Below are positions 7,307 through 23,350 of a DNA stretch of 35,894 nt, piece by piece. Location of the stretch: contig JAUZOM010000021.1 in NCBI GenBank assembly GCA_030706465.1, positions 1 to 35,894 on the forward strand, in the 5' to 3' direction. Each line of letters opens with the position of its first letter. The first letter of the stretch is position 1. The DNA comes from Bacteroidota bacterium (GTDB taxonomy: Bacteria > Bacteroidota > Bacteroidia > Bacteroidales > Paludibacteraceae). Under the pieces are notes generated by a model that saw nothing but the letters and a program-made list of their open reading frames with translations, searched no databases and had not been told where the DNA came from. The position numbers were made by a program, and so were the translations under genes.

Positions 7307-9919
7307 TTACTTTTGATATAGATCCATTTTAACTCCGTTTAAATCACTCTCAAAAGAATAATTGTTCTTTCCATGTCTGATATTTATGATTTTTCCATTG
7401 AAGAAACGGTTTGAATTCGCCCTGTATGGACTTAAACTTCCATTTATTGATGGTTTATACCCCATTAGTCCATCGATGATCGTATTGGCGTAATCCGAAC
7501 CGGATAGCAGAAATGAAGCCCCGGCCCGCGCGCCTATTCGATTAATAGTTTCTGTCGATCCGGGGGGAACTAAGAATTCAATAGCCTGTCCCATGCCCGA
7601 TTCAACGAAAGCATTTCTAAAATTACTCAGGATATTCTTTGCTTTTTCGAATTGTCCGAGGTCTGCAATAGCTTGAACCGTCAAAGCCGGCCAGCCAATA
7701 TAGCAGCCTACCGGGCCATGGTCTGAACGGTCGGAATTGTAAGCGGCCTGATCTTTCAGGGACATAGCACGCATAAAGTTTGTCTGTGTTAATAATTCCG
7801 TTTCAACAAATCGAATCATCTCACTTTTCATTTGAGGTGTCAGGTCATCCTTCATTGTCATTCCGATGCTTAGGAAATCATAACTATGGCGGCTTATTAT
7901 CGAATCGCCATTGGGATATTTTACTTTCCAAACGCCTTCACCCGGAACATAAAGGGATTTTACATGCTCCGAAAGCTGGTTTGCTTTGTCCGTCAGATCC
8001 TCTGCGCGTTTACCAGTCCCGTACAATGTATCATAATCTGCCATGCTCCGTAGCATCCAAACATTTTGAGCATTCATGGCCGGAATCATATGAATATAAT
8101 TTGGATTTGTTTCAAAGAACGACCATGGATCTTTCCCATAATCCGCCAATCCATACTCCTTGTTGAATCGTTTTTCCCAACCTGTAGCTATATTGTATAA
8201 ATGGTCGAGGACCTGTTTGCCATTGCATTCACTCTTTAGGAAATCAAAATCCTTGTTAATCCGCAGATAGCTATCGATTGTTTTGAAAAGGGCATAATCA
8301 TTTACGGCATACCAATGATTCACAATTTGTCCGTTTTCATAATTGATCGCGTTTCCCTTATCAATATTTACATTTAAGCACATCTTGATAAATGCCTTCA
8401 ACCCTTTGGGCTCTAATAATGCATACATATCAGCGAACTGGGATATTTCCCAAAAATAGGCCTGGTTATTTGCCCATTCGTTATTTGAGCCAAATGCAAT
8501 ATCCAACGTCGGATAAACATTATTCTGTTGGGTTTCCAGGAAACTGACAATAGACAGATAATATAACTCATACAGGTTTTTGTCGGAAGTTTCGAAAGTA
8601 GGCAGATAACCGGAATAGCTTTTGTTTTGAGGGGTAAAAACATCTTTCCAACGGTCTTCCCACCGGGATTTTGCATCGCTGAATGATTGTGTAAAATTGG
8701 TATTCCAGCTTTTTGAATTGGAAACGGCTGTGTTGCTTTTATTATCAATACATAAAACATAGGATATTGTTTTCTTTTCTCCCGGTTTTAAACGAATGTT
8801 CCAAAATGCATCAATGTCCTCCCCTGTATTCCGTATTGAGTCGGGTTTATTTTTGAATGAAAAGGCATAACTGTTGTTTGCATAGGATATCAATGCTTGT
8901 GCTGGATTATCGTTTATAAGACGTTCCGGGATCCCGGAGATAAGTTCCATTGACAGCGGAAAGGCAGCCTGTTTATTCGTTTTGTTTTCCAAATTGAGCT
9001 GCATAAGCACACCTTTTTTTTCAAAAACCAATCGCATAGTACTTGTGAACTCAACGCCCCTAAAAAGGGATTTATTTACCAATTGATAAGGATACCACTT
9101 TGATTTTTGGCTGAAGATTACAGAATCGTTTACCATTAATATCCCGGCAGGTTTCTTTAATTTACTGCCAGCTAAAAATTGTGTTTCAAATCCTCCCAAA
9201 CATTTGGAAGATTTTACACTCCCCAAAAAGTTCCCAATTGCAGGAGAACAAGCTAATGTCCTGGTGTCAACAGACTGGCCGAAAATATGATCTAACGTTG
9301 GAATTTCGGTGTAGTTTTTTATTGGACATTCTGTAATTGCTACGCGATCTATCAAAAAACCTTCAATCATATCACGCTGATCCCCCTGTTTATCTTTAAC
9401 CACTTTGCAGGAGTCTTCCAGAAATTCAAGCGTATGATTTCCTGATTTAATCGATAGGGTGGGTAATGTTATTGCAACCCATTTCATGTGATCGGACAGC
9501 CTTGTTTCGGAAGGAACCCAATAGACTGTATATTCCCGAGAATCGATTTCCCGAGAATCGATATATACTTTTAATTTTCCACTCTCAATACGGGATGCCG
9601 CAAAAGCATAGGACACATTTACATTAATATTTTTATCGACCGTAAAATCTTGCCGGATGGAGGTCTTCAATCCAGACTTTGCCGGTAATAGCAGACATTG
9701 AAAATTTGAATACGGGAAAAGGCGGGTATGATTAATAATGGATACTGGAAGATCAAACTTCCAACCAGGTAATCCCTCTTGAGGATGAATGGTCAGGCTT
9801 AATTCATCGGTTATGGGATATTCGAAATCTCCGTTTTTTATAAGATTCTGAGAGGAACTATCCGAATAGATGGCTAAAAAAAGTAAGACAAGGGTCATTA
9901 TGATGAAATTGCTTTTCAT
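7307..9919 (-). CDS. Large putative glycosidase: N-terminal carbohydrate-binding-like module plus (alpha/alpha)6 six-hairpin glycosidase domain
   Basis: Start taken at MKSNFIIMTLVLLFLAIYSDSSSQ (signal peptide), inside ORF 7307-9985. N-terminal NLIKNGDFEYPITDELSLTIHPQEGLPGWKFD module; C-terminal helical half with TLDIAFGSNNEWANNQAYFWEISQFADMYALLEPKG, AMNAQNVWMLRSMADYDTLYG, GPVGCYIGWPALTVQAIADLGQFEKA. GH family not assigned. Confidence 0.72.
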   Translation of the reverse strand: MKSNFIIMTLVLLFLAIYSDSSSQNLIKNGDFEYPITDELSLTIHPQEGLPGWKFDLPVSIINHTRLFPYSNFQCLLLPAKSGLKTSIRQDFTVDKNINVNVSYAFAASRIESGKLKVYIDSREIDSREYTVYWVPSETRLSDHMKWVAITLPTLSIKSGNHTLEFLEDSCKVVKDKQGDQRDMIEGFLIDRVAITECPIKNYTEIPTLDHIFGQSVDTRTLACSPAIGNFLGSVKSSKCLGGFETQFLAGSKLKKPAGILMVNDSVIFSQKSKWYPYQLVNKSLFRGVEFTSTMRLVFEKKGVLMQLNLENKTNKQAAFPLSMELISGIPERLINDNPAQALISYANNSYAFSFKNKPDSIRNTGEDIDAFWNIRLKPGEKKTISYVLCIDNKSNTAVSNSKSWNTNFTQSFSDAKSRWEDRWKDVFTPQNKSYSGYLPTFETSDKNLYELYYLSIVSFLETQQNNVYPTLDIAFGSNNEWANNQAYFWEISQFADMYALLEPKGLKAFIKMCLNVNIDKGNAINYENGQIVNHWYAVNDYALFKTIDSYLRINKDFDFLKSECNGKQVLDHLYNIATGWEKRFNKEYGLADYGKDPWSFFETNPNYIHMIPAMNAQNVWMLRSMADYDTLYGTGKRAEDLTDKANQLSEHVKSLYVPGEGVWKVKYPNGDSIISRHSYDFLSIGMTMKDDLTPQMKSEMIRFVETELLTQTNFMRAMSLKDQAAYNSDRSDHGPVGCYIGWPALTVQAIADLGQFEKAKNILSNFRNAFVESGMGQAIEFLVPPGSTETINRIGARAGASFLLSGSDYANTIIDGLMGYKPSINGSLSPYRANSNRFFNGKIINIRHGKNNYSFESDLNGVKMDLYQK
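9533..9562. repeat. 15-bp perfect tandem duplication inside the CDS
   Basis: ttcccgagaatcgat repeated exactly twice; in-frame, giving ..YIDSREIDSREY.. in the protein. Confidence 0.9.
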
Positions 9920-10142
9920 AGTATTTTTTATTTTGGTTATCTCCGATTGTAAATTGTGAACGAAATGGCTTTCTTTTTTTTGCAAATATCGCTACAACCA
10001 TCAACTTTCACTTTCGGTATAGGATAATTTACTTTTGTTATTGTAACACTTTATTCCTATTCTCTCAAATTACATATTTTACAGTTTATTTTATTGGTAG
10101 ATTAAGCCGAAATTCTTTTCTTTGTGTAATTATTTATTTACT

Positions 10143-13100
10143 ATGAAAACACGATCCCTATTCATTCGAAAAATACTATTCGTAATTTTGCTTGTTTGTA
10201 CGACTTTCAGGGTGTCATCCCAAAAAGTCGAGCCTAATCAGATCAATAAATTTTCTACAGAACAGGGCCTATCCAGTAATATAATTTACACGGTATTGCA
10301 GGATCCTAAAGGTTTTATTTGGATTGCTACCGAAGAAGGCCTTAACAAATTCGATGGAAAGAGTTTCACCTATTTTGCTACGAACTCTTCCGGACGCTAT
10401 TCTCTTACGCACAATCGTACTCAAACTTTGATTCTTGCTCCCGATGGGAATATTTGGACCGGCACGTCGGATGGGCTAAATATCTATGATTACCGGTCAG
10501 ATAGTATTATTAAAGTCAGAAAGAATACAAATCCACTTAAATTAGTTTACAACGATATAACGTTCCTGACAACAAATGTCAGTAAAACCAAGACCTGGAT
10601 TGGAACCTATGGCGATGGGGTAAACTATTTTGATTGGGCTAAAAGAAAGTTCTATGCTTTATCCCTGCCAAAGATCAAAAACATTCCACCTCCCTTGTTT
10701 GTAAGAAGTTTGCTGGAAGACGATAATGGTCGTCTTTGGATTGGAACTCAACACAACGGTCTCTATCGGTATGACCTTATTGAAAAAAGGTTTAATTATT
10801 ATCCATTACCCTACAGCTCTCTTTTTATCCGAACCATTTACCAGGATAATTTTCGAAGGATTTGGATTGGTACTTCAAAGGGATGTTACTTATTTAATGA
10901 AACGACCAACCAGTTGGACTTAATAAACTATCCTTCGGAGCTGGCAACGAACTCTATCGGTGCAATTAAAGAAGACCATGCCGGAAGAATTTGGATAGGG
11001 ACAGAACAATTTTTAATGAATTTTTCAGTCAGATCTTTCTCCGTAAAAGAGAAGTTTCTTTATCAGCTTATCAGCCAGGGAGAATCTTCATCCAGGCTTA
11101 GTTGCTCATCGATCAACTCCTTATATGCCGATCGGGATAACAATATCTGGATTGGGACAGCTTGGGGAGGTGCAAACATGTTGAAGGGTACACCTACTAA
11201 ATTCAAGTTGTTTAAACATAACCCGGAGTCAGCCAATTCATTACCCAATTCACCTATTAATGCAATTTGTACCGATAATAAGGGTAGCCTGGTTATTGCA
11301 ACAATGGGTACCGATAAGGTCGGTGTTTGTAAAATGAACCTTCAAAATGGTGAAATCAAAGAATTGGAATTAAACAAAAAGTTACCCGGTTATATTTATC
11401 AGTCGGCCTTATTCGATTCCCAAAATAATTTATGGCTTGGAACTTACAACAAAGGATTATTAAAAGCCAATCAGAATAATTCAAACTTCAAGCAGTTTCA
11501 ATTTGATACGAAAAACCCGGGTTCCATTCCGGGTAACGATGTCCGGGCCATATACGAAGGAAAAGATAAGACAATTTGGATTGGGACAAACAATGGCCTA
11601 GCTAGATACGATGCTAAGAGTCAGCAAATTTATCGGATTGAAGCGGTAAATCGAAATGCGGTTGCCATCCGTTCAATTAAAGAGGCTGCCAATGGAACTC
11701 TTTGGATAGGAACTTATGGAGCTGGTGTCATTACGTATAATTACAAGACTCAACGGGTAAATTTTAGACCGACCACCTTGGCTCCGCATGTAATTACCGA
11801 TATGTTGATATGCGGTGATAGTGTTTGGATTGCGTCGCAAGGGGAAGGCCTTTTTCTATATAACCAACGGAATAAAAAGAGTGTCATATTCACGGAATTA
11901 AATGGGCTGTCAAGCAACTACATAAGTTCCTTGTCGTGTGATAATACAAAGAAAATATGGATGGGGACCAGTAAAGGAATCTCAAGATTTGATCCAAGAA
12001 CAAAAGAGATTGAAAACTTTAGTTCGGGCGATGGTATCCAAAATCGTGAATTTTCTGCACATGGGGCAGTAGCTTTACCCAACGGATTAATGGCATTTGG
12101 CGGTTTTGGCGGTTTAAATCTGTTCAACCCGTTGGAAGTCACAAAAAACGATAAATGCCCCTCCGTCATTTTTACAAAACTGCTTGTATCTAACGAATTA
12201 ATTACGCCATCAGAAAACAAACGTAAAAACTCTCCATTAAAAGAAAATATCACGCTCGCGGATAAGATCGTATTGAATTACAATCAATCTGTCTTTACAC
12301 TCGAATTCATGGGTGTGAATTATAATGCAAATCAAAAAATTCAATACGCCTATTTTCTGGAAGGTTCTGATAAAAAATGGAATCATTTAGGAACCCAGAA
12401 CAGTGTAACATTTAGAAATCTACAGCCGGGTGAATACGTTTTTAAAGTGAAGGCATCCAGCCCCGATGCTGTTTGGAGCGATAAGAATATTGCGTCGATC
12501 GAAATAATTATAAAACCTCCTTTTTGGAAAACCTATTGGGCTTATTTTATATATCTGATCATTCTTGCCGCGATACTTTATTTTGTCTGGGTTTTTTTCA
12601 CAACAAGAATTCGTGCGGCCAATAATTTAAAAATTGAAAGGGCTAAACGGGAAAATGATGAAGAATTGCATCAGGAAAAATTACAGTTTTTCACGAATAT
12701 ATCACATGAATTCAGGACTCCATTGACCTTGATTATCGGACCACTCGAAAAAATACTGATGGATGAAACCGAAGAAGAAAAGAAAGTTCATTTAAAACTG
12801 ATGTTACGGAATGCCAAACGATTATTGGGAATGGTAAACCAACTCCTCGATTTTCGAAAAGCCGAACGGGGACAATTTAAATTGAAAGTACAGCATCAGG
12901 ATTTGATCAATAATATAAATGAAATTATGATCTCGTTCGATGAATTAAGAATTCAGAAAAATATCAGTTTAGAGTTTATCCATGATGACCAATCCTTGTT
13001 GGCCTGGTTTGATGCGGATTTTCTGAACAAGTCTTTGTTTAATTTACTTTCGAATGCGTTTAAGTTTACACCCAATGGCGGCTGTATTACCCTGTTGGTT

Positions 13101-14270
13101 TGTACAACGAAAGATCTGTTGGACAATAGAATTGTTGAAATTTCATTAACCGATAATGGGAAAGGAATTTTACCCAAAGATATAAACAATATATTTAAAC
13201 GATTCTACCAGGGTAAAGAACAGGGAAATACGCCAAAAGGATCAGGAATTGGACTACACTTAACCAAAAGTTTAATTGAATTGCACCATGGCACCATCGA
13301 AGTAGAAAGCACTCCAAATGTGAAAACGACCTTCAAAATTACGCTTCCGATAGAAAGAAGTGCTTATTTAGAAGGCGAATTCATGGATGAAGCGGAGATA
13401 GAATCAAACAGGGCGCTCGTAGAGAATGTTGTAGATCTGGATCTTGTAGATACCGAAAAAGCACCGGTCGAAAAGTCTAAGAATCAAAATAAGAAACGAA
13501 TTTTAATTGTAGAAGACAACGAAGATATTCGTAGCTATATTCACAGTATCCTGGGTGTGGATTATGAAATACAGGAAGCTGAAAATGGGGCTGTCGCGCT
13601 TGAAATGGTTGCCTTAAATGAATATCATTTGATAATAAGCGATTTAATGATGCCGGAAATGGATGGAATCGAAATGTGTCACCGGTTGAAAGGTTCGATT
13701 GAAACGGATCATATCCCCATTATCATCCTCACGGCCAAATCGGAAATCGAGGATAAGATTGAAGGATTGAAGATCGGAGCCGACTCCTATATTACAAAAC
13801 CATTTCATCCTGAACATCTGATTATCCGGGTTTCCAAGCTGATCGAGTTGCGGGAGCTGCTCAAAGAACGCTATAGCCATAAAATCTCCTTGGGCGATTT
13901 GAACAAACCAGACCTGGTATCCGCATCGCCGGATGAGCTGTTCTTGCAAAAAACAATTTCAATAATCTTAGACAAGATGGTTGAAACCGAATTTAATGGG
14001 GATGCCCTTGCCTACGAATTGGGCATCAGCCGAATGGGGTTGCACCGGAAAATTAAGGCGCTCACTGGACAAAGTACAGGTGAATTTATACGGAATATCC
14101 GACTCAAAAAGTCTTGTGAATTACTTAGTACGCAGGGAAAGAACATTTCAGAGGTTTGTTACGATGTAGGTTTTAATTCTCCCTCTTATTTTACCACCTG
14201 TTTCACTGAGGCATTTAAAATGACTCCTAGCGAGTATGTAAAAAGTTTAAAAAATACCACCACAACATAG
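10143..14270 (+). CDS. Hybrid two-component system regulator (HTCS): two-component propeller sensor, Y_Y_Y, TM, HisKA, HATPase, receiver, AraC-type HTH
   Basis: Start at MKTRSLFIRKILFVILL. Repeated WIGT..GL.(R/F)(Y/F)D propeller blades; Y_Y_Y domain (LQPGEYVFKVKASSPD); H-box FFTNISHEFRTPLTLI; G-box GSGIGLHLTKSLIELHHG; receiver RILIVEDNEDIRSYI..ISDLMMPEMDG; AraC HTH ISEVCYDVGFNSPSYFTTCFTEAFKMTPSEY. Confidence 0.96.
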   Translation: MKTRSLFIRKILFVILLVCTTFRVSSQKVEPNQINKFSTEQGLSSNIIYTVLQDPKGFIWIATEEGLNKFDGKSFTYFATNSSGRYSLTHNRTQTLILAPDGNIWTGTSDGLNIYDYRSDSIIKVRKNTNPLKLVYNDITFLTTNVSKTKTWIGTYGDGVNYFDWAKRKFYALSLPKIKNIPPPLFVRSLLEDDNGRLWIGTQHNGLYRYDLIEKRFNYYPLPYSSLFIRTIYQDNFRRIWIGTSKGCYLFNETTNQLDLINYPSELATNSIGAIKEDHAGRIWIGTEQFLMNFSVRSFSVKEKFLYQLISQGESSSRLSCSSINSLYADRDNNIWIGTAWGGANMLKGTPTKFKLFKHNPESANSLPNSPINAICTDNKGSLVIATMGTDKVGVCKMNLQNGEIKELELNKKLPGYIYQSALFDSQNNLWLGTYNKGLLKANQNNSNFKQFQFDTKNPGSIPGNDVRAIYEGKDKTIWIGTNNGLARYDAKSQQIYRIEAVNRNAVAIRSIKEAANGTLWIGTYGAGVITYNYKTQRVNFRPTTLAPHVITDMLICGDSVWIASQGEGLFLYNQRNKKSVIFTELNGLSSNYISSLSCDNTKKIWMGTSKGISRFDPRTKEIENFSSGDGIQNREFSAHGAVALPNGLMAFGGFGGLNLFNPLEVTKNDKCPSVIFTKLLVSNELITPSENKRKNSPLKENITLADKIVLNYNQSVFTLEFMGVNYNANQKIQYAYFLEGSDKKWNHLGTQNSVTFRNLQPGEYVFKVKASSPDAVWSDKNIASIEIIIKPPFWKTYWAYFIYLIILAAILYFVWVFFTTRIRAANNLKIERAKRENDEELHQEKLQFFTNISHEFRTPLTLIIGPLEKILMDETEEEKKVHLKLMLRNAKRLLGMVNQLLDFRKAERGQFKLKVQHQDLINNINEIMISFDELRIQKNISLEFIHDDQSLLAWFDADFLNKSLFNLLSNAFKFTPNGGCITLLVCTTKDLLDNRIVEISLTDNGKGILPKDINNIFKRFYQGKEQGNTPKGSGIGLHLTKSLIELHHGTIEVESTPNVKTTFKITLPIERSAYLEGEFMDEAEIESNRALVENVVDLDLVDTEKAPVEKSKNQNKKRILIVEDNEDIRSYIHSILGVDYEIQEAENGAVALEMVALNEYHLIISDLMMPEMDGIEMCHRLKGSIETDHIPIIILTAKSEIEDKIEGLKIGADSYITKPFHPEHLIIRVSKLIELRELLKERYSHKISLGDLNKPDLVSASPDELFLQKTISIILDKMVETEFNGDALAYELGISRMGLHRKIKALTGQSTGEFIRNIRLKKSCELLSTQGKNISEVCYDVGFNSPSYFTTCFTEAFKMTPSEYVKSLKNTTTT

Positions 14271-14604: not shown

Positions 14605-17136
14605 CTAGTTGTTGATTATTTTTGTGAATGGAACTTTATATTTCTCCCCAAGTAAACTTTCATATTCTTTACAGAAATTATCATACGAGAATTTAGCCAA
14701 CCCTTTTTTACCCAAATCGTACAGTGCATTACACTTAATATACAATGCATTTTCGTTTATGGAGTCGAAAAGGAAAATAATTTCACAAATTCTCATTTTG
14801 AGTTTAAGATTTGATTTTATACTTTCTTTCTCCAGCAGCGACCCAAGCATATCTAAAGCAAAGTTGGAGTATTGGGCCTTGTAAGTATCAATCCATTCAG
14901 CTTGCGTAAATGGCACTAACGGTCCGTAGCTAAGTAATTCAACCAGTTTAGCAACCGTGTCCTGATTATTCGTGATTTCAGACTCGGGAAGTTTCATCAA
15001 CCGGGATATGGCGAGATAATCGCAAAAACAATCGTCATTAATTACAAGTTTCCAAAACCGACCTTCATTCTGAATACGCACATCGCCCACTTCTTCCAGT
15101 ACGTTATTTAACCTGTTGATTGAAACATTCCGGTTGTTACGTGTAGATTTATTGTCTTTGTCTGGCCATAACAACGAGTCAATAATTTTGGTACTAATGC
15201 CCAGATCTTCATTACTGCTGAGTATTGTACAAAGAAGTATTGTTTTTAAGACAGGTGTAAAATGGCTCGTGATGTCGTTACCATTTTTATCTTTCACGTT
15301 AAATCCGCCCAAGAGCGAGATGGCTTTTATATTCCGATTGAAAATGGGAGCCGGTTCGATACCTGTTTTATCATTTCTTACCTCGAATGAATATTCGGCA
15401 TTTTTGGTTTGTTTCTTCTTTTTACTTTCCTGTAATTGTTTATAATGGATAATAAGATATAAAACCATCCCAATAAGCCCAATACCAAGAATGGCGCATA
15501 AAATCAGTATTGGGGAAATAGATTGAGGCTCTCCCTGAATGGACTCAGACTTACTTAGTGGAGGATAACAGGTTTCGTAAAGGTCAATTTTACCTCCTCC
15601 AGCCTTATAGTCACGACAGAACAAAACATAAAGCTTATTCAGTTTTTGAGGTTTCATTAGCGTGAAAAGATTGAAGTCCGCTTCGAGTTGCTGATTTATA
15701 TTGGATATGATATAGCGTATTTTCGGGTTGCTCTTCGATATTTTTATTAAGCTTCCGCCATCTTTGTTGGTCATCACATAAAAACTGTTTTCCTTCGGGC
15801 TATATACCATGTTACCGCAGGGTAAGCCATAGGTGTTTAAAGATGATTTCCAGATTTGTTTTACGCTGGATGTTTTCAGGTCAATAGCATACAAATCATT
15901 AAAGATCGTAGAGGGCTCTTCTTGTTTCCCGCTTTCGTTCCCTTCGCCGCTGAATATGAATAAGGTGTCGTTCAGAATAGTTGATGCTGCCGAATACCGT
16001 TTGGTTATGGCTTCAATTTTTTTGTTCTTCCAGGAGTTATCCTGAAGTGAAAATAAAAAGAAATCATTGGTATAACGATAGATTCCATATCCGCCAAAGG
16101 CAACAATGCTTGCGCGGTTTTGCCAATAGGCGGCTGTATGATGCCAAAAATGTGTTTCCTGAGTTCCAAACTGTTTCCTGGACCAAGTTGATGTTTCGAA
16201 AGAGAATACGGAAATACTTTGTTCGTCGAGACTATATGAAATGAGTCTTTGATTTTCGGAATCGAATACGAGCTGGTTTGTACTGCGTGAAGCCGGAAAT
16301 CCGCCTCTAACCGGGATTGCTCTTTTATCTTTTGTCTCGGGGTTGTAAACGATGATACTGTTATTATCCGGGACAATATATATAAGGTTGTTTTTGGGGT
16401 CGAAAGTATATTGTGGATAGTTGCTGTTTTTCAAATCGAGGGAAAGCAGCTTTGTCCATTTCGTATAATAATCGATCAGCCATTCTGGGTTATGCACTTT
16501 GGCAACAGCTTGTTTTTTTTCATCGTAGCATATTATATCCTTGTGCTTACACAATTTCCAAGACCGAAATAAATTATTGTTGTGTTTTAGTTCAATATTC
16601 CGTAGGTTCATTGGAGGAACTTCCTCCGTGATGAAATTGGGAATTGAGCTGACTCCAAAGCAAATTTTGACATCACCAAAGTTTTGAACCGAGTTAGGAA
16701 AACTATGCGTAAATATATAGTCGTCGCATCGTAATGTAATTTTCCGGTCGGAATTGGAGAGTATGATGTTTAGATTGAACCAGCTATTAAAATCGACAGA
16801 TTTTTTGATAGGAATAAGCTGGTTATTGATAAGCAAGATAAAGGTCGGTTTGCCTAATTCGTTTGTGGCTATACTCAGGATGATCGAATTCCCTTTGTCG
16901 CTTACAATACGTATAATTGAGCCAAAAAGAGTTTCCTTCCTGATTAACATATCAAATCCAACTCCCAGGTTGGAGCCAAGTTTTACGAACTCGTCGTTCT
17001 CCAACGATAGTCCGGTACGATCTTTACTCAGAAACTTGTAGGATTTAAATTTTAATCCATAGTCAATCTTATTTTCGGCAGTCACCACAACTGTACACAA
17101 TAAAATGGCCATTAGACCTAATGTAAATTTTTTCAT
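14605..17136 (-). CDS. Membrane-anchored regulator: signal peptide, LamG-like domain, Kelch propeller, single TM (about 15445-15513), cytoplasmic SARP/OmpR-type winged-helix and BTAD-like region
   Basis: Start taken at MKKFTLGLMAILLCTVVVTA, inside ORF 14605-17178. Kelch-type blades (HHTAAYWQNRASIVAFGGYGIYRYTNDFFLFSLQDNSW; YSAASTILNDTLFIFSGEGNE); TM ISPILILCAILGIGLIGMVLYLIIHY followed by KKKKQTK; C-terminal ISLLGGFNVKDKNGNDITSHFTPVLKTILLCTILSS..SLLWPDKDNKSTRNNRNVSINRLNNVLEEVGDVRIQNEGRFWKLV resembles SARP/OmpR-like DNA-binding domains. Confidence 0.75.
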   Translation of the reverse strand: MKKFTLGLMAILLCTVVVTAENKIDYGLKFKSYKFLSKDRTGLSLENDEFVKLGSNLGVGFDMLIRKETLFGSIIRIVSDKGNSIILSIATNELGKPTFILLINNQLIPIKKSVDFNSWFNLNIILSNSDRKITLRCDDYIFTHSFPNSVQNFGDVKICFGVSSIPNFITEEVPPMNLRNIELKHNNNLFRSWKLCKHKDIICYDEKKQAVAKVHNPEWLIDYYTKWTKLLSLDLKNSNYPQYTFDPKNNLIYIVPDNNSIIVYNPETKDKRAIPVRGGFPASRSTNQLVFDSENQRLISYSLDEQSISVFSFETSTWSRKQFGTQETHFWHHTAAYWQNRASIVAFGGYGIYRYTNDFFLFSLQDNSWKNKKIEAITKRYSAASTILNDTLFIFSGEGNESGKQEEPSTIFNDLYAIDLKTSSVKQIWKSSLNTYGLPCGNMVYSPKENSFYVMTNKDGGSLIKISKSNPKIRYIISNINQQLEADFNLFTLMKPQKLNKLYVLFCRDYKAGGGKIDLYETCYPPLSKSESIQGEPQSISPILILCAILGIGLIGMVLYLIIHYKQLQESKKKKQTKNAEYSFEVRNDKTGIEPAPIFNRNIKAISLLGGFNVKDKNGNDITSHFTPVLKTILLCTILSSNEDLGISTKIIDSLLWPDKDNKSTRNNRNVSINRLNNVLEEVGDVRIQNEGRFWKLVINDDCFCDYLAISRLMKLPESEITNNQDTVAKLVELLSYGPLVPFTQAEWIDTYKAQYSNFALDMLGSLLEKESIKSNLKLKMRICEIIFLFDSINENALYIKCNALYDLGKKGLAKFSYDNFCKEYESLLGEKYKVPFTKIINN

Positions 17137-17213: not shown

Positions 17214-17260
17214 GGCATAATAATGAACAATTTTGAAAAAATCGTTTCATAAAAAAAAAA

Positions 17261-17282
17261 AAAACGATTAAAAAACGATTTA
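17261..17282. promoter_or_regulatory. 11-bp-spaced direct repeats AAAACGATTAA/AAAACGATTTA, candidate regulator-binding site
   Basis: aaaacgattaa (17261-17271) then aaaacgattta (17272-17282), exactly 11 bp apart; inverted copy AATCGTTT at 17240-17247. Confidence 0.5.
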
Positions 17283-17290
17283 TATCTTTT

Positions 17291-17333
17291 TTTAATGACC
17301 GTTTAATTGCTTTGTAGATCATTTTTTAATTGC
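17291..17333. promoter_or_regulatory. Second direct-repeat set TTTAATgac/TTTAATTGC/TTTAATTGC upstream of susC
   Basis: tttaatgac (17291-17299), tttaattgc (17302-17310), tttaattgc (17325-17333): spacings of 11 and 23 bp. Confidence 0.45.
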
Positions 17334-17670: not shown

Positions 17671-20600
17671 ATGGAAAAATTAAACCACTTATTGAGATGG
17701 ATAAGTTGCATTAAGCGTGTAACGCTATTAATTATTTTGTGCAGTATGGTGACAGCTCCTTTAGGCGCTCAAACCAGAAAAATATCGGGAGTAGTAAATG
17801 ATCAGAGCGGTGTTCCGATTATCGGAGCCAATGTGCAGGTAAAAGGAGAAAAGCATGGAGCTCTGACAGACATCAACGGTAAATTTACGATAGACGCCTC
17901 TACCGGACAAAAGTTGGTAATTGGTTATATCGGATTTGAAACCAAAGAAGTTCAGGTTGGTAAAGACAATTCTTTACGAATAGTACTTCAGGAAGATGAT
18001 AAAGTGTTGGATGAAGTAGTAGTGGTCGGTTATGGAACGCAGAAGAAGGCAACTCTTACCGGGGCTGTATCTGCAATCAGTAACAAAGAGATCATGACCA
18101 CTAAAAACGAGAACGTAATGAACATGATGACGGGTAAAGTTTCCGGAGTCAGAGTTGTACAGAAGAGTGCAGAGCCAGGGTCATTTAACAATGCATTTGA
18201 TATCCGAGGCTTTGGCGATGTCCTTATCGTAATCGATGGTATTCCACGGGACAACTTTACAAGGATTGACCCGAATGAAATTGACAATATCTCCGTACTG
18301 AAGGATGCTTCGGCAGCAGTTTATGGAGTAAATGCGGCGAATGGGGTTGTGTTGATAACGACCAAGAAAGGTACGTCAGCCAAGAAGGACAAATTCGATT
18401 TTACTTATTCAGCCAACTTCGGCGGGCAAAAATCCATCGGATTACCGTTAGCTACCGATGCCATTGGTTATATGACTTTGATGAACGAAAAGCGGAAGCG
18501 TAACTTCGGCCAGAATTATGTAACTCAGCAGTCACCAGCTTTTGATGATACCGAATTTGAAGCATTCCGTAACGGAGATCGTACCTCTTCGAACTGGGGA
18601 AATCAGGTACTGTCCAATTTGGCTCCTCAAACGCAACATTCCCTTAGCATGAATGGAGCCGGTGATAACATTAGCTATTTCTTTAATTTGGGCTATCTGA
18701 GTCAGGACGGCATCTTTAAAACCGGCGATTTGAATTACAACAAATGGAATTTCCGTGCCAATGTTGATGCCAAGATCGCGAAGAATTTCAGGACCGAACT
18801 CAAGGTGTCGGGTATTATGGATACCAAAAACGATATTATCGGAGGGGCCTGGAATATTTTCAAATCTATCTGGAACCAACTTCCTACCGATGCTATTTAT
18901 GCCAATAACAATAAACTATATCCCGGAACTGCGTCCGGATTTGTGAATCCGGTTCTTGCCATTGATGCCGACAAAACAGGCTACAGTCGAACCAATGACA
19001 AATGGTTACAATCCTCATTGGCATTAATCTACGATATACCATATGTAAAAGGTTTATATGCAAAGGCATTGTACAGTTATGATTATCACCTATCGGACAA
19101 CAAACAATACAAGAAAGCTGTAACCATGTATACCTACGATGCAGAGAAAGATGTGTATAATCCTGTTGTATTAAACAGTCCATCAACTGTTTCACGTTCA
19201 TACGGATACAATATAGGATCCATGATGCAGTTGTCGTTGAACTATGAACAAAAATTCGGGAATCATAACGTGAAAGCGTTGGCCCTGTACGAAGAGAATA
19301 GCACTAGAGGAGATAACTTCAATGCTTTCCGTGAGTTATCATTGGATGTGGATCAGTTATTTGCCGGTAATGATCTGCGTCAGACAGGTAATATGGATCC
19401 CAATGGCCTATATAATAACACCAAGAAGAGTTTTGTCGGCCGTCTGAATTACGACTATAAATCGAAATATCTATTGGAGGCAAGTGCCCGTCTTGACGGT
19501 TCATCCAGGTTCAAGGCCGGTCAGTGGGGCGTCTTTAGTGCCTATTCGGCCGGATGGCGAATTTCGGAAGAATCCTTTATTAAAGATAATGCTTCATTAA
19601 GGTTTATCGACAATCTGAAACTAAGATCATCCTACGGGGTAATGGGTGATGATCGTGCATTAGATTTTCAATTCTTAAGTGGATACTCGTATCCAAGCGG
19701 AGGAACCGTGTTTGGAGGCAATTTTGTTAATGGAATCGGCTTTTATCCAGTTGCTAATCCAAATATTACCTGGGCCACATCTAAAACCTACGATGCCGGA
19801 ATAGATGTGGATTTGTGGAAAGGATTGTTTGGTGCGCAGGTCGATTTCTTTGTCCGTAACCGTTCCGCATTATTAGGTACACGTATCCAGTCGGTTCCGG
19901 GTACAGTCGGTGCAGCATTGCCTCAGGAAAATATTAATAAGGATCAAACACTGGGTTACGAAATCGTGCTGACTCATAAAAATACCATTGGTGATTTTAG
20001 ATATAATATTTCCGGTAATATGTCAATAACCCGTAATAAAACAATTTATGTGGATAGGGCTCAATCGGGGAACTCCTACGAAAACTGGAGAAATAATCCG
20101 ATCAACAGATATCAGAATATAGTATGGGGAACTACCTGCTTGGGCCAATTCCAATCGTATAAACAAATATACAGTAGTACTGTCAATTACGGAGGCGGAA
20201 ATCAGGCAATTGTTCCAGGAGATTATTACTATAAGGACTGGAATGGTGATGGTGTGATAGATGGTTGGGACGAAAAACCCATTGCCACCAAGTCGGTTCC
20301 CCTGATTAATTACGGACTTACATTAGGAGGTCAATACAAGGGTTTTGACCTGAATATGTTGTTCCAGGGAACGGGTCTTGTTTATGTTCAGTACCAGGAG
20401 CAGTTAGCAGAACCACTCTGTTGGGATAGGAATGCATTGGCATTGTTTATGGATAGATGGCATACTGCCGATCCGAATGCCGATTATTTCGATCCGAATA
20501 CAAAATGGATCCCGGGTACATTTGCGGCCGTCGGTAATGGATCGGTGAGGGGTTCGGGAACCGCTTCTATCCAGGATGCTTCCTATATTCGGTTGAAGAG

Positions 20601-20802
20601 TGTAGAGTTAGGCTATACGATACCGAGGAAGATCATGAAAATTGCGGGAATGGAATCGGGGCGTGTGTACATCAACGGATATGATTTATTCACCTTTACG
20701 AAACTTAAATTCCTTGATCCAGAACATCCGGGTGATGAACTGTACGGGTACATTTATCCGTTGGTGAAGACTTTCAATGTAGGCTTTAATGTTACTTTCT
20801 AA
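17671..20802 (+). CDS. susC: SusC-like TonB-dependent outer-membrane transporter
   Basis: Signal peptide; carboxypeptidase-D-like regulatory domain (ISGVVNDQSGVPIIGANVQVKG..GALTDINGKFTI); SusC signature DEVVVVGYGTQKKATLTGAVS; plug IRGFGDVLIVIDGIPRDNFTRIDPNEIDNISVLKDASAAVYG; ends in aromatic FNVGFNVTF. Confidence 0.96.
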   Translation: MEKLNHLLRWISCIKRVTLLIILCSMVTAPLGAQTRKISGVVNDQSGVPIIGANVQVKGEKHGALTDINGKFTIDASTGQKLVIGYIGFETKEVQVGKDNSLRIVLQEDDKVLDEVVVVGYGTQKKATLTGAVSAISNKEIMTTKNENVMNMMTGKVSGVRVVQKSAEPGSFNNAFDIRGFGDVLIVIDGIPRDNFTRIDPNEIDNISVLKDASAAVYGVNAANGVVLITTKKGTSAKKDKFDFTYSANFGGQKSIGLPLATDAIGYMTLMNEKRKRNFGQNYVTQQSPAFDDTEFEAFRNGDRTSSNWGNQVLSNLAPQTQHSLSMNGAGDNISYFFNLGYLSQDGIFKTGDLNYNKWNFRANVDAKIAKNFRTELKVSGIMDTKNDIIGGAWNIFKSIWNQLPTDAIYANNNKLYPGTASGFVNPVLAIDADKTGYSRTNDKWLQSSLALIYDIPYVKGLYAKALYSYDYHLSDNKQYKKAVTMYTYDAEKDVYNPVVLNSPSTVSRSYGYNIGSMMQLSLNYEQKFGNHNVKALALYEENSTRGDNFNAFRELSLDVDQLFAGNDLRQTGNMDPNGLYNNTKKSFVGRLNYDYKSKYLLEASARLDGSSRFKAGQWGVFSAYSAGWRISEESFIKDNASLRFIDNLKLRSSYGVMGDDRALDFQFLSGYSYPSGGTVFGGNFVNGIGFYPVANPNITWATSKTYDAGIDVDLWKGLFGAQVDFFVRNRSALLGTRIQSVPGTVGAALPQENINKDQTLGYEIVLTHKNTIGDFRYNISGNMSITRNKTIYVDRAQSGNSYENWRNNPINRYQNIVWGTTCLGQFQSYKQIYSSTVNYGGGNQAIVPGDYYYKDWNGDGVIDGWDEKPIATKSVPLINYGLTLGGQYKGFDLNMLFQGTGLVYVQYQEQLAEPLCWDRNALALFMDRWHTADPNADYFDPNTKWIPGTFAAVGNGSVRGSGTASIQDASYIRLKSVELGYTIPRKIMKIAGMESGRVYINGYDLFTFTKLKFLDPEHPGDELYGYIYPLVKTFNVGFNVTF

Positions 20803-20813
20803 TACTAATTACG

Positions 20814-22619
20814 ATGAAAATAAAACAGATATTAATTATAGCATTAATAGGAATGTGTGGCGCATGTAACACGTTAGATGTACTGCCACCCAATTTTCTT
20901 AAGGATTCGGATATTTTCACAAGTGAAAGCGGAGTTACGGCATATTTAACCCGATTGTACAGTGAATTGCCTATCGAGGATTTTAAATACAGGCGCGATG
21001 CCGGGTTCAATGTATTTGAAAGCTTTTTTGGGCTGGGTATCAATACCGGCGAGTATATTCAGGCTGATTATGTGCGGAACTGGGATACCAATTCAGGATT
21101 CGGATACTGGCCGTATGGTAATATCCGGAATGCAAACTATTTTATTCAGACTCTGCCTAAATATGCCTCTTATTTGCAGGAGAGTGATATGAAAGCCTGG
21201 TTGGGCGAGGCGTATTTTTGCCGGGCGTATTACTACTTTGGGTTGGTAAAACGCTACGGCGGAGTGCCTATCGTTACGAAACCCCAGGATCCTTATGCAC
21301 CGCTTGATTCGTTACAGGTGCCCCGGAACAAAGAGGTAGAAGTTTACGATTTTATAAGTAATGACTTACAAAAGGCAATTGACTATTTACCAGAGACAAG
21401 TGTTGCCGGACGAGCCAATAAATATGTGGCAGCAGCACTCAAATCGAGAGCCATGCTATTTGCCGGATCGATAGCCAAATACGGAGCAAATTCGTATGTC
21501 GGGTCAGACGCACAAGTAAAGGGACTTGTCGGAATTCCGGCCGAACGTGCACAGGATTTCTTCCAACAGAGTTATGATGCCGCTAAATTATTGGAAGGGA
21601 AATACTCCTTGTATAATGTGAATCCGGACAAAGCGCAGAATTATCAGGATCTTTTCCTGGATGAAAACAGCAAGGAGAATATTTTCATTAAGCAATACGT
21701 ATATATGGAGTCGGTTGAAAATTCACGTCATAGCTGGGATGCCTTAAATTCACCACAACAAATGACCAACTCTTACGGAGCGTGTATGACTCCAACATTG
21801 GATTTGGTAGAGTTGTTCGGGGAAGTTAAGGTGAACGATGATGCGGGAAACCCCATCCGTTTCGATAAGAGATCAGACCTGTTAGCCTCGCTGACTCCGC
21901 GCCAACGTGCGGTAGCTTACTATCCGGGAGAAGAGCTAAGAGGTATCGAGATCGATATTCAGGCCGGTCTTTTTACCGGGAATTATACTCCCACAGCCGT
22001 TCCTCGTACAGCAACTTCGACCTTAGCAACGTATACGGATAAAGCAACCGGAATAAAATACCGTATTATGGGATTGAGTGGTATGGGCGACGGCTCCACG
22101 ACCCGCTCCGGTCTTATCATGAAAAAGTACATGAATTATAAAATGCCGTTGGCTGATGTAAATCTTTGGAAATCGACCCAGCATTGGATTGACATGCGCT
22201 ATGCCGAAGTATTGCTGAACAGAGCTGAAGCAGCTTATGAACTTGGAACTGACGAAATGAAGGCAGACGCGTTAACACAAATCAATGCCATAAGAGATAG
22301 GGGCGGAGACAAACTGTTTACCATGAATGACCTTACCATCGACGAGATAAGAATGGAACGTCGACGCGAACTTTGCTTTGAGAATCAAACATGGTGGGAC
22401 CTGCGTAGATGGAGAATTGCAGATAAAGTAATTAATAATACCCAGTATCATGCTTTGTATCCTTACTATATTATTAAAGAAGGCAAATATATTTTCAAGA
22501 AAGATCTGGAATTTCACAAGGCATACTATACATTTGGATTGCAACAGTATTACGAACCAATCCCCGGCGGTGAGATAAATATGAATCCAAATCTTTTACC
22601 GAACAATCCATTGTATTAA
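20814..22619 (+). CDS. susD: SusD/RagB-like surface glycan-binding lipoprotein
   Basis: Lipobox MKIKQILIIALIGMCGAC; AWLGEAYFCRAYYYFGLVKRYGGVPIVTKP; C-terminal WIDMRYAEVLLNRAEAAYELG..INAIRDRGG..EIRMERRRELCFENQTWWDLRRWR; directly follows SusC. Confidence 0.96.
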   Translation: MKIKQILIIALIGMCGACNTLDVLPPNFLKDSDIFTSESGVTAYLTRLYSELPIEDFKYRRDAGFNVFESFFGLGINTGEYIQADYVRNWDTNSGFGYWPYGNIRNANYFIQTLPKYASYLQESDMKAWLGEAYFCRAYYYFGLVKRYGGVPIVTKPQDPYAPLDSLQVPRNKEVEVYDFISNDLQKAIDYLPETSVAGRANKYVAAALKSRAMLFAGSIAKYGANSYVGSDAQVKGLVGIPAERAQDFFQQSYDAAKLLEGKYSLYNVNPDKAQNYQDLFLDENSKENIFIKQYVYMESVENSRHSWDALNSPQQMTNSYGACMTPTLDLVELFGEVKVNDDAGNPIRFDKRSDLLASLTPRQRAVAYYPGEELRGIEIDIQAGLFTGNYTPTAVPRTATSTLATYTDKATGIKYRIMGLSGMGDGSTTRSGLIMKKYMNYKMPLADVNLWKSTQHWIDMRYAEVLLNRAEAAYELGTDEMKADALTQINAIRDRGGDKLFTMNDLTIDEIRMERRRELCFENQTWWDLRRWRIADKVINNTQYHALYPYYIIKEGKYIFKKDLEFHKAYYTFGLQQYYEPIPGGEINMNPNLLPNNPLY

Positions 22620-22642: not shown

Positions 22643-23350
22643 ATGAAAGGAATCATAAAATTCGCGGTATGTTTACTCATTGCTGCTGTAAACTATTCCT
22701 GCCTAACAGGGATAGATGACTATCAGATGCCTAACGAAACATTGAAGGGTGTTGTTATTGACAAGTATACCGGTCAACCTATGTTGACGGAAACAGGAGG
22801 TTACCGGATCAAGCTTGAAGAATTGAGCTGGAGTAGTACACCGACTCCGGAGTATTTTGGAAACAAACAAGACGGTACGTTTTTTAATTCGAAGATATTC
22901 AAAGGACACTACCGGATAAATGTTGAAAACGGGCCGTTCATTCCGCTTACAGACACCATTGAAATGGATATTAAAGGTGTGACAGAACACAATTTTGAAG
23001 TAGAACCTTATTTGCATCTCAATATTACCGATTTGCAGGTTGTGGATACCACTTTCACGGTTAAGTTCAACATCACAAGCGAGAACAATATGTACCAGGT
23101 GCTTGATGCCCGTGTGTTTGTCAATAATACTTCGTTTGTAGGTTCGGGTGCAAATATAGCTGACTATTCGGTACAGAAAATTGATTTGTCGACCACAATG
23201 AATGAATTAATTTATGCAAACGAGTACTCCTTCAAAGTGTCGGAACTGAAACGTGGCCGTACATTTTATATTCGTGTAGGCGCCCGTGTGGATGATCCGA
23301 TTGCAAAGAAATATAATTTGTCGGAGATAAAAGAGATACAGATCCCATAA
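22643..23350 (+). CDS. DUF3823-like (SusE-position) surface lipoprotein
   Basis: Lipobox VNYSC near the N-terminus; GVVIDKYTGQPMLTETGGYRIKLEELSW and YRINVENGPFIPLTDTIEMDIKG; position after SusD. Confidence 0.75.
   Translation: MKGIIKFAVCLLIAAVNYSCLTGIDDYQMPNETLKGVVIDKYTGQPMLTETGGYRIKLEELSWSSTPTPEYFGNKQDGTFFNSKIFKGHYRINVENGPFIPLTDTIEMDIKGVTEHNFEVEPYLHLNITDLQVVDTTFTVKFNITSENNMYQVLDARVFVNNTSFVGSGANIADYSVQKIDLSTTMNELIYANEYSFKVSELKRGRTFYIRVGARVDDPIAKKYNLSEIKEIQIP

Follow-up and report, generated by a model that had tools for sequence, protein, structure and literature searches.

The gene at positions 14605 to 17136 of the window, the whole stretch of 35,894 nt that was analysed, most probably specifies a one-component, membrane-tethered SARP-type activator of PULs using half-sites arranged as direct repeats with 11/12-bp steps. 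The open reading frame starts with an ATG at 17136, contains zero internal stop codons and encodes 843 aa. AlphaFold, run on the full-length protein with 26 homologues, placed the parts in this order: signal helix, beta sandwich, propeller, long membrane helix (residues 542-573), disordered linker and cytoplasmic domain (residues 605-842). The gene and the parts of its product are located as follows.

14605..17136, minus strand: regulator gene, 843 aa, with signal peptide, LamG-like part, Kelch propeller, TM helix, wHTH and BTAD-like domain
17077..17136, minus strand: signal peptide, residues 1-20 (MKKFTLGLMAILLCTVVVTA), hydrophobic helix 2-18 in the model
16483..17049, minus strand: LamG-like beta sandwich, residues 30-218, from the AlphaFold model, with Laminin_G_3 in 2/26 relatives
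15562..16455, minus strand: Kelch beta-propeller, residues 228-525, presumed sensor, from Pfam Kelch and fold matches
15439..15513, minus strand: single TM helix, residues about 542-566, then KKKK, from model and alignment
15040..15324, minus strand: OmpR/SARP-type winged helix, residues 605-699, from model, Foldseek and profile-profile alignment
15088-15153, minus strand: recognition helix, residues 662-683, within the winged helix
14611..15021, minus strand: BTAD-like TPR domain, residues 706-842, from model, Foldseek and profile matches

The N-terminus is hydrophobic in nearly all family members with an intact start. The full-length model that shows the beta sandwich has a mean pLDDT of 88. 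In Pfam scans, Laminin_G_3 matched the two relatives listed and gave no match in the window protein itself, and therefore the label LamG-like refers to the fold and to the relatives. The propeller was detected directly in the window protein by PF24681 with an E value of 9.5e-18, Kelch_3, Kelch_4 and Kelch_6 being also above the cut-off. Kelch was found in all 26 aligned relatives, and structure comparison matched the propeller to the Kelch domains of LZTR1, Keap1 and others. The TM helix, trailed by HYKQLQESKKKK in the window protein, is present together with the basic residues after it in 26/26 aligned members, none of which contains a second TM segment. Conservation is highest in the recognition helix, where the mean majority fraction is 0.68, compared to 0.44-0.46 in the sensor.

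Modelled alone with AlphaFold, the cytoplasmic domain reached a mean pLDDT of 95.4 and starts with strands at its N-terminus, followed by a winged helix of three helices, in which the recognition helix is long, a wing and a TPR-like helical domain. Foldseek returned six PDB matches at E<1e-3, all of them SARPs, namely EmbR of M. tuberculosis and AfsR of S. coelicolor, and these matches span the whole domain. In the window protein, the wHTH/BTAD part lies outside all Pfam matches and would be missed in a routine domain scan. When PDB sequences were searched with the cytoplasmic-domain profile, nothing real was found, and the link to SARPs came only via the fold comparison and BTAD intermediates from Bacteroidota. 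A search of 297 genomes of the phylum with the family profile (A5) retrieved family members and then other proteins at E values from 8e-16 to 9e-5. Pfam BTAD was found in 9/9 of the non-family proteins scanned, and it was also above the cut-off in two congeneric members (L094/L095). Aligned to five BTAD proteins by hhalign, A5 gave a probability of 98.9 over 227 columns and a pairwise E value of 2.8e-17. From these profile matches and the BTAD hits in relatives, it follows that the cytoplasmic domain is a divergent SARP module by sequence, not a look-alike.

Two features of SARPs are thus present in the protein, the OmpR-type wHTH and, by fold and profile-profile alignment, the BTA(D) helices straight after it. 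The N-terminal position within a cytoplasmic protein, known from the small and large SARPs described so far, is not found. Since the module is C-terminal and lies behind a conserved TM helix, the protein is filed as a SARP-type output module and not as a classical SARP. In a preliminary description, a signal peptide with a LamG-like and Kelch region, a single TM helix followed by KKKK and a C-terminal OmpR/SARP-like wHTH with a BTAD-like tail had been proposed. All these parts were borne out, and structure prediction placed the wHTH at the C-terminus at very high confidence. In other genomes of the phylum, the BTAD proteins of L108, L110, L113 and L119 have the wHTH-BTAD at the N-terminus, with long TPR regions after it, and form a separate set of SARP-type regulators.

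In the window, the regulator gene is embedded in a PUL with the following further genes.

17671..20802, plus strand: SusC-like TonB-dependent transporter, divergent neighbour, presumed target
20814..22619, plus strand: SusD-like protein
22643..23350, plus strand: DUF3823 lipoprotein-type gene
10122..14270, plus strand: canonical HTCS with Reg_prop, HisKA, receiver and AraC domains, transcribed convergently, a further regulator of this PUL

An 892-aa open reading frame of this PUL (7307-9985, minus strand) gave no Pfam match at E 1e-3 and possibly encodes an unrecognised enzyme or surface protein.

For the family as a whole, 69 non-identical members were compared with 40 control regions of 20 kb from member-holding genomes. 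SusC is the immediate neighbour of 21/69 members compared to 26/579 control genes (p 2.9e-10), and in 21/21 cases its 5' end faces the member, as expected of a cluster regulator. GH92 was found as neighbour of 13/69 members and of 2/592 control genes (p 5e-12), a sulfatase next to 6/69 members and 0/593 control genes. SusC, SusD, GH92 or a sulfatase is located at most three genes away from 47/69 members (control 89/593). In the other 22 members all four are absent from this range, in some because the contig ends. The co-occurrence with PULs in other genomes that the preliminary description had predicted is therefore far above control, and the GH92/sulfatase link, like the operator signal described below, goes beyond that description. 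The DUF3823 gene accompanies SusC/D in 14 member loci and is present in no control region. The presence of SusC plus SusD within about 10 kb was not significant alone (27/69 versus 9/40, p 0.09), PULs being frequent in the genomes concerned; adjacency of SusC and the GH92/sulfatase enrichment are significant. No enrichment of HTCS genes was seen beside members (2/69 versus 10/588 control genes). Members thus usually stand alone beside SusC, and the pairing with an HTCS in the window is unusual.

Where no SusC adjoins the member, GH92, sulfatase, GH125 and GH43 are the families most often found as neighbours. The family has a strong link to GH92 alpha-mannosidases, and also to GH125 and sulfatases, as in L027, L043, L055, L066, L068, L167 and others. 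These associations hint at N-glycan, alpha-mannan or sulfated-glycan substrates.

In SARP operators, direct repeats are spaced by 11 or 22 bp (PMC10936776; PMC4393881). With no motif assumed, the intergenic regions on either side of members were set against control ones. Exact direct repeats of at least 8 nt were found 18 times at period 11, with 4.1 expected, and six times at period 23, with 0.0 expected. Shared k-mers in member promoters showed no clear excess over shuffles, whereas the direct-repeat periodicity did. Common to the repeats is the half-site GRTTAA (TTAAYC on the opposite strand), often present in three copies. After strand-aware removal of duplicates (L233 is a duplicate of L029 in reverse orientation), GRTTAA pairs of period 11 numbered 13 in the training regions (35 kb), six in the held-out regions (10 kb) and zero in the control (88 kb), and those of period 23 four, four and zero, the held-out loci coming from a new genome search in which some genomes are congeneric with training genomes. 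A score for three half-sites, with weights set by hand from the training sites, was at least 16 in 21/85 regions of the training set, 9/26 of the held-out set and 3/291 of the control (p=7e-9 for the held-out regions alone), so that this threshold is reached by only some 25 to 35% of the regions flanking members. The arrays usually lie upstream of a target, be it SusC, GH92, a sulfatase or another operon, at a distance of 40-250 bp from its start. In 29/34 cases (p 4e-5), a count that includes a few related loci, the target gene and GRTTAA are on opposite strands.

Two full-length paralogs are present in the same genome. A scan of the whole genome for the triple pattern gave no more than two matches with one mismatch. 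One of them lies 286 bp upstream of the SusC/SusD operon in the PUL of the C1 paralog, a PUL that also contains GH92, GH125 and GH3. A match with two mismatches lies about 60 bp before the GH92 gene of that PUL and belongs to a class with many chance matches (control 20 against 66). Judged from their sequence, the GRTTAA arrays, which have SARP geometry with 11/12- and 23-bp spacing, are likely to be the operators of the family and are regarded as candidates. On contigs C3, C16, C169, C202, C266, C272 and C333 of genome G000, dispersed 11-bp tandem arrays like GGGTTATCCCT were observed, often as inverted pairs; these look like a repeat element of their own.

The intergenic region between the regulator gene and susC of the window, 534 bp in length, contains two candidate repeats.

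17259..17280, no strand assigned: candidate operator on the regulator's side of the intergenic region, perfect 11-bp tandem repeat of AAAAAACGATT, two copies (CGATTAA-11-CGATTTA)
17292..17333, plus strand: candidate operator towards susC, TTAATG (17292) and exact TTTAATTGC at 17302 and 17325 (period 23)

TTAATG stands 11 bp ahead of the period-23 repeat (17302-17333). Two such repeats occurred in 0/2000 dinucleotide shuffles of the window promoter, one repeat in 2.6%. The AAAAAACGATT repeat resembles the site of relative L039 (CGATTAATTTTCGATTAAT), and the TTTAATTGC repeat resembles a half-site of relative L047 (TTAATTG at period 11). A strong family-consensus triple is absent within 400 bp of susC, the best score being 7.1. 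As neither repeat reaches the family triple score, the exact operator of the window is a candidate.

The position of the repeat at 17259-17280 on the regulator's side, and arrays upstream of the regulator in divergent loci as well, would fit a membrane-tethered SARP-type protein acting as a ligand-relieved repressor or mainly as an autoregulator, which occupies the repeats and keeps the PUL, or its own gene, shut off as long as no sugar is bound. Many loci, however, contain arrays where the only nearby start codon is that of the target, the end of the regulator gene facing the target's start, and known SARPs are activators (PMC10936776). Repression or autoregulation is therefore considered unlikely.

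The complete HTCS at 10122-14270, together with the weak triple score of the promoter, raises a second question, namely whether the HTCS truly regulates the window PUL and the SARP-type protein is a remnant or acts on some other target in the genome. This, too, appears improbable to about the same degree, since the regulator gene, which is intact, and susC diverge from a region with two repeats of the family periods, and HTCS genes are not enriched beside members, as described above.

For the preferred role of the protein as an activator, the following mechanism is proposed. The periplasmic LamG-like/Kelch part of the inner-membrane protein would sense an incoming oligosaccharide delivered by the adjacent SusC/D, and the signal would cross the single TM helix and change the arrangement of the cytoplasmic SARP-type domains on the DNA. 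These domains are predicted from the repeat signal to bind tandem direct half-sites on one DNA face, in 11/12-bp steps, upstream of the susC, GH92 or sulfatase operon adjoining the regulator gene. As in AfsR (PMC10936776), protomers lying side by side may occupy the 11/12-bp steps, and activation could occur by a SARP-like contact with sigma region 4 / RNA polymerase, also by analogy to AfsR. We infer both the glycan ligand and the activation.

Members of the family were detected in 17/48 genomes of the genus and 29/393 genomes of the order. They are present in Bacteroides, Coprobacter, Dysgonomonas, Mediterranea, Chitinophaga, Mucilaginibacter, Echinicola, Fulvivirga, Galbibacter and Robertkochia, among other genera. 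Variants combine a constant output with a changed sensor. L016 and L021 (neighbourhoods L072 and L070) and L105 encode short members in which a LamG-like part is present and the Kelch propeller absent. The downstream genes form a similar run in L070 and L072, with a DcuC-type carrier in L072, and include no SusC/D pair. In L052 (8303-10846, plus strand), the same output is fused to an N-terminal TIM-barrel-like part, with a weak MTC6 match, and Laminin_G_3, from which it follows that sensors are exchanged on the SARP-type output. L017 resembles L052 by eye. In L006/L009/L058 (G132) the member gene is broken into two frames, and in L053 (Bacteroides xylanisolvens XB1A) the member is a short C-terminal open reading frame behind one of 499 aa. 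Both are candidates for pseudogenes, real splits or sequencing errors.

SARPs are familiar above all from Actinobacteria, where they act as soluble switches of antibiotic clusters. With the SARP/BTAD activators AfsR and EmbR, the window family shares the OmpR-type wHTH followed by an all-helical BTA domain, the direct-repeat geometry (11/22 bp in SARP operators), seen at the family level and in the window as two candidate repeats only, and the cluster-situated gene. In contrast to SARPs, it is membrane-tethered, has a periplasmic sensor and a C-terminal DNA-binding module, occurs in Bacteroidota beside PULs, is too divergent for Pfam in most members and has GRTTAA as half-site. ToxR/CadC-type proteins are one-component regulators with an OmpR-type winged helix tethered to the membrane, the wHTH being N-terminal. 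The window protein is alike in these respects except that the order is reversed, with a C-terminal wHTH and then the BTAD-like domain. HTCS are PUL regulators which also place a periplasmic beta-propeller sensor before the DNA-binding output, but histidine kinase, receiver and AraC domain were not found in the window protein by Pfam or in the model, and its propeller is of the Kelch and not the Reg_prop type.

SusR-like regulators have a periplasmic sensor, a single membrane anchor, a C-terminal DNA-binding domain without known relatives, direct-repeat motifs and a position adjoining susC (PMC3878776), and on these grounds the window protein could be a SusR-like regulator with a DNA-binding domain that was never classified. 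A SusR2-type regulator accompanies the dextran PUL (GH66, GH31, SusE, SusD, SusC) (PMC3878776). By this context, a TPR-TM-DUF6377 protein was recognised in L158 (11902-13569, minus strand) beside GH66, GH31 and SusE/D/C. It is unlike A5, with an hhalign probability of 0.2%, and homology to SusR, examined by way of this protein, was rejected. Predicted SusR boxes, moreover, are 67 or 77 bp apart (PMC3878776) and not 11/12, which leaves a SusR-like identity very improbable indeed. DUF6377 probably marks the SusR-like family.

In the open literature, to which the search was confined, no paper joining SARP or Kelch with Bacteroides PUL regulation was found, in agreement with the earlier suggestion of a PUL regulator class with little description. 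It appears fairly likely that the SARP-type activators form an undescribed class of membrane-anchored PUL regulators in Bacteroidota. Exchangeable periplasmic sensors (LamG+Kelch, LamG alone, or TIM-barrel-like+LamG) on one SARP-type output would activate alpha-mannoside, sulfated-glycan and other PULs via a shared operator code of TTAAYC direct repeats with 12+11-bp steps, and their regulons would be predictable from DNA alone. The SARP output module is joined here to a periplasmic propeller beside glycan-use genes in Bacteroidota, including the gut genera Bacteroides, Coprobacter and Mediterranea. That members often stand alone beside SusC would explain PULs without an HTCS, a SusR or an ECF pair, and the operator code makes their target genes predictable.
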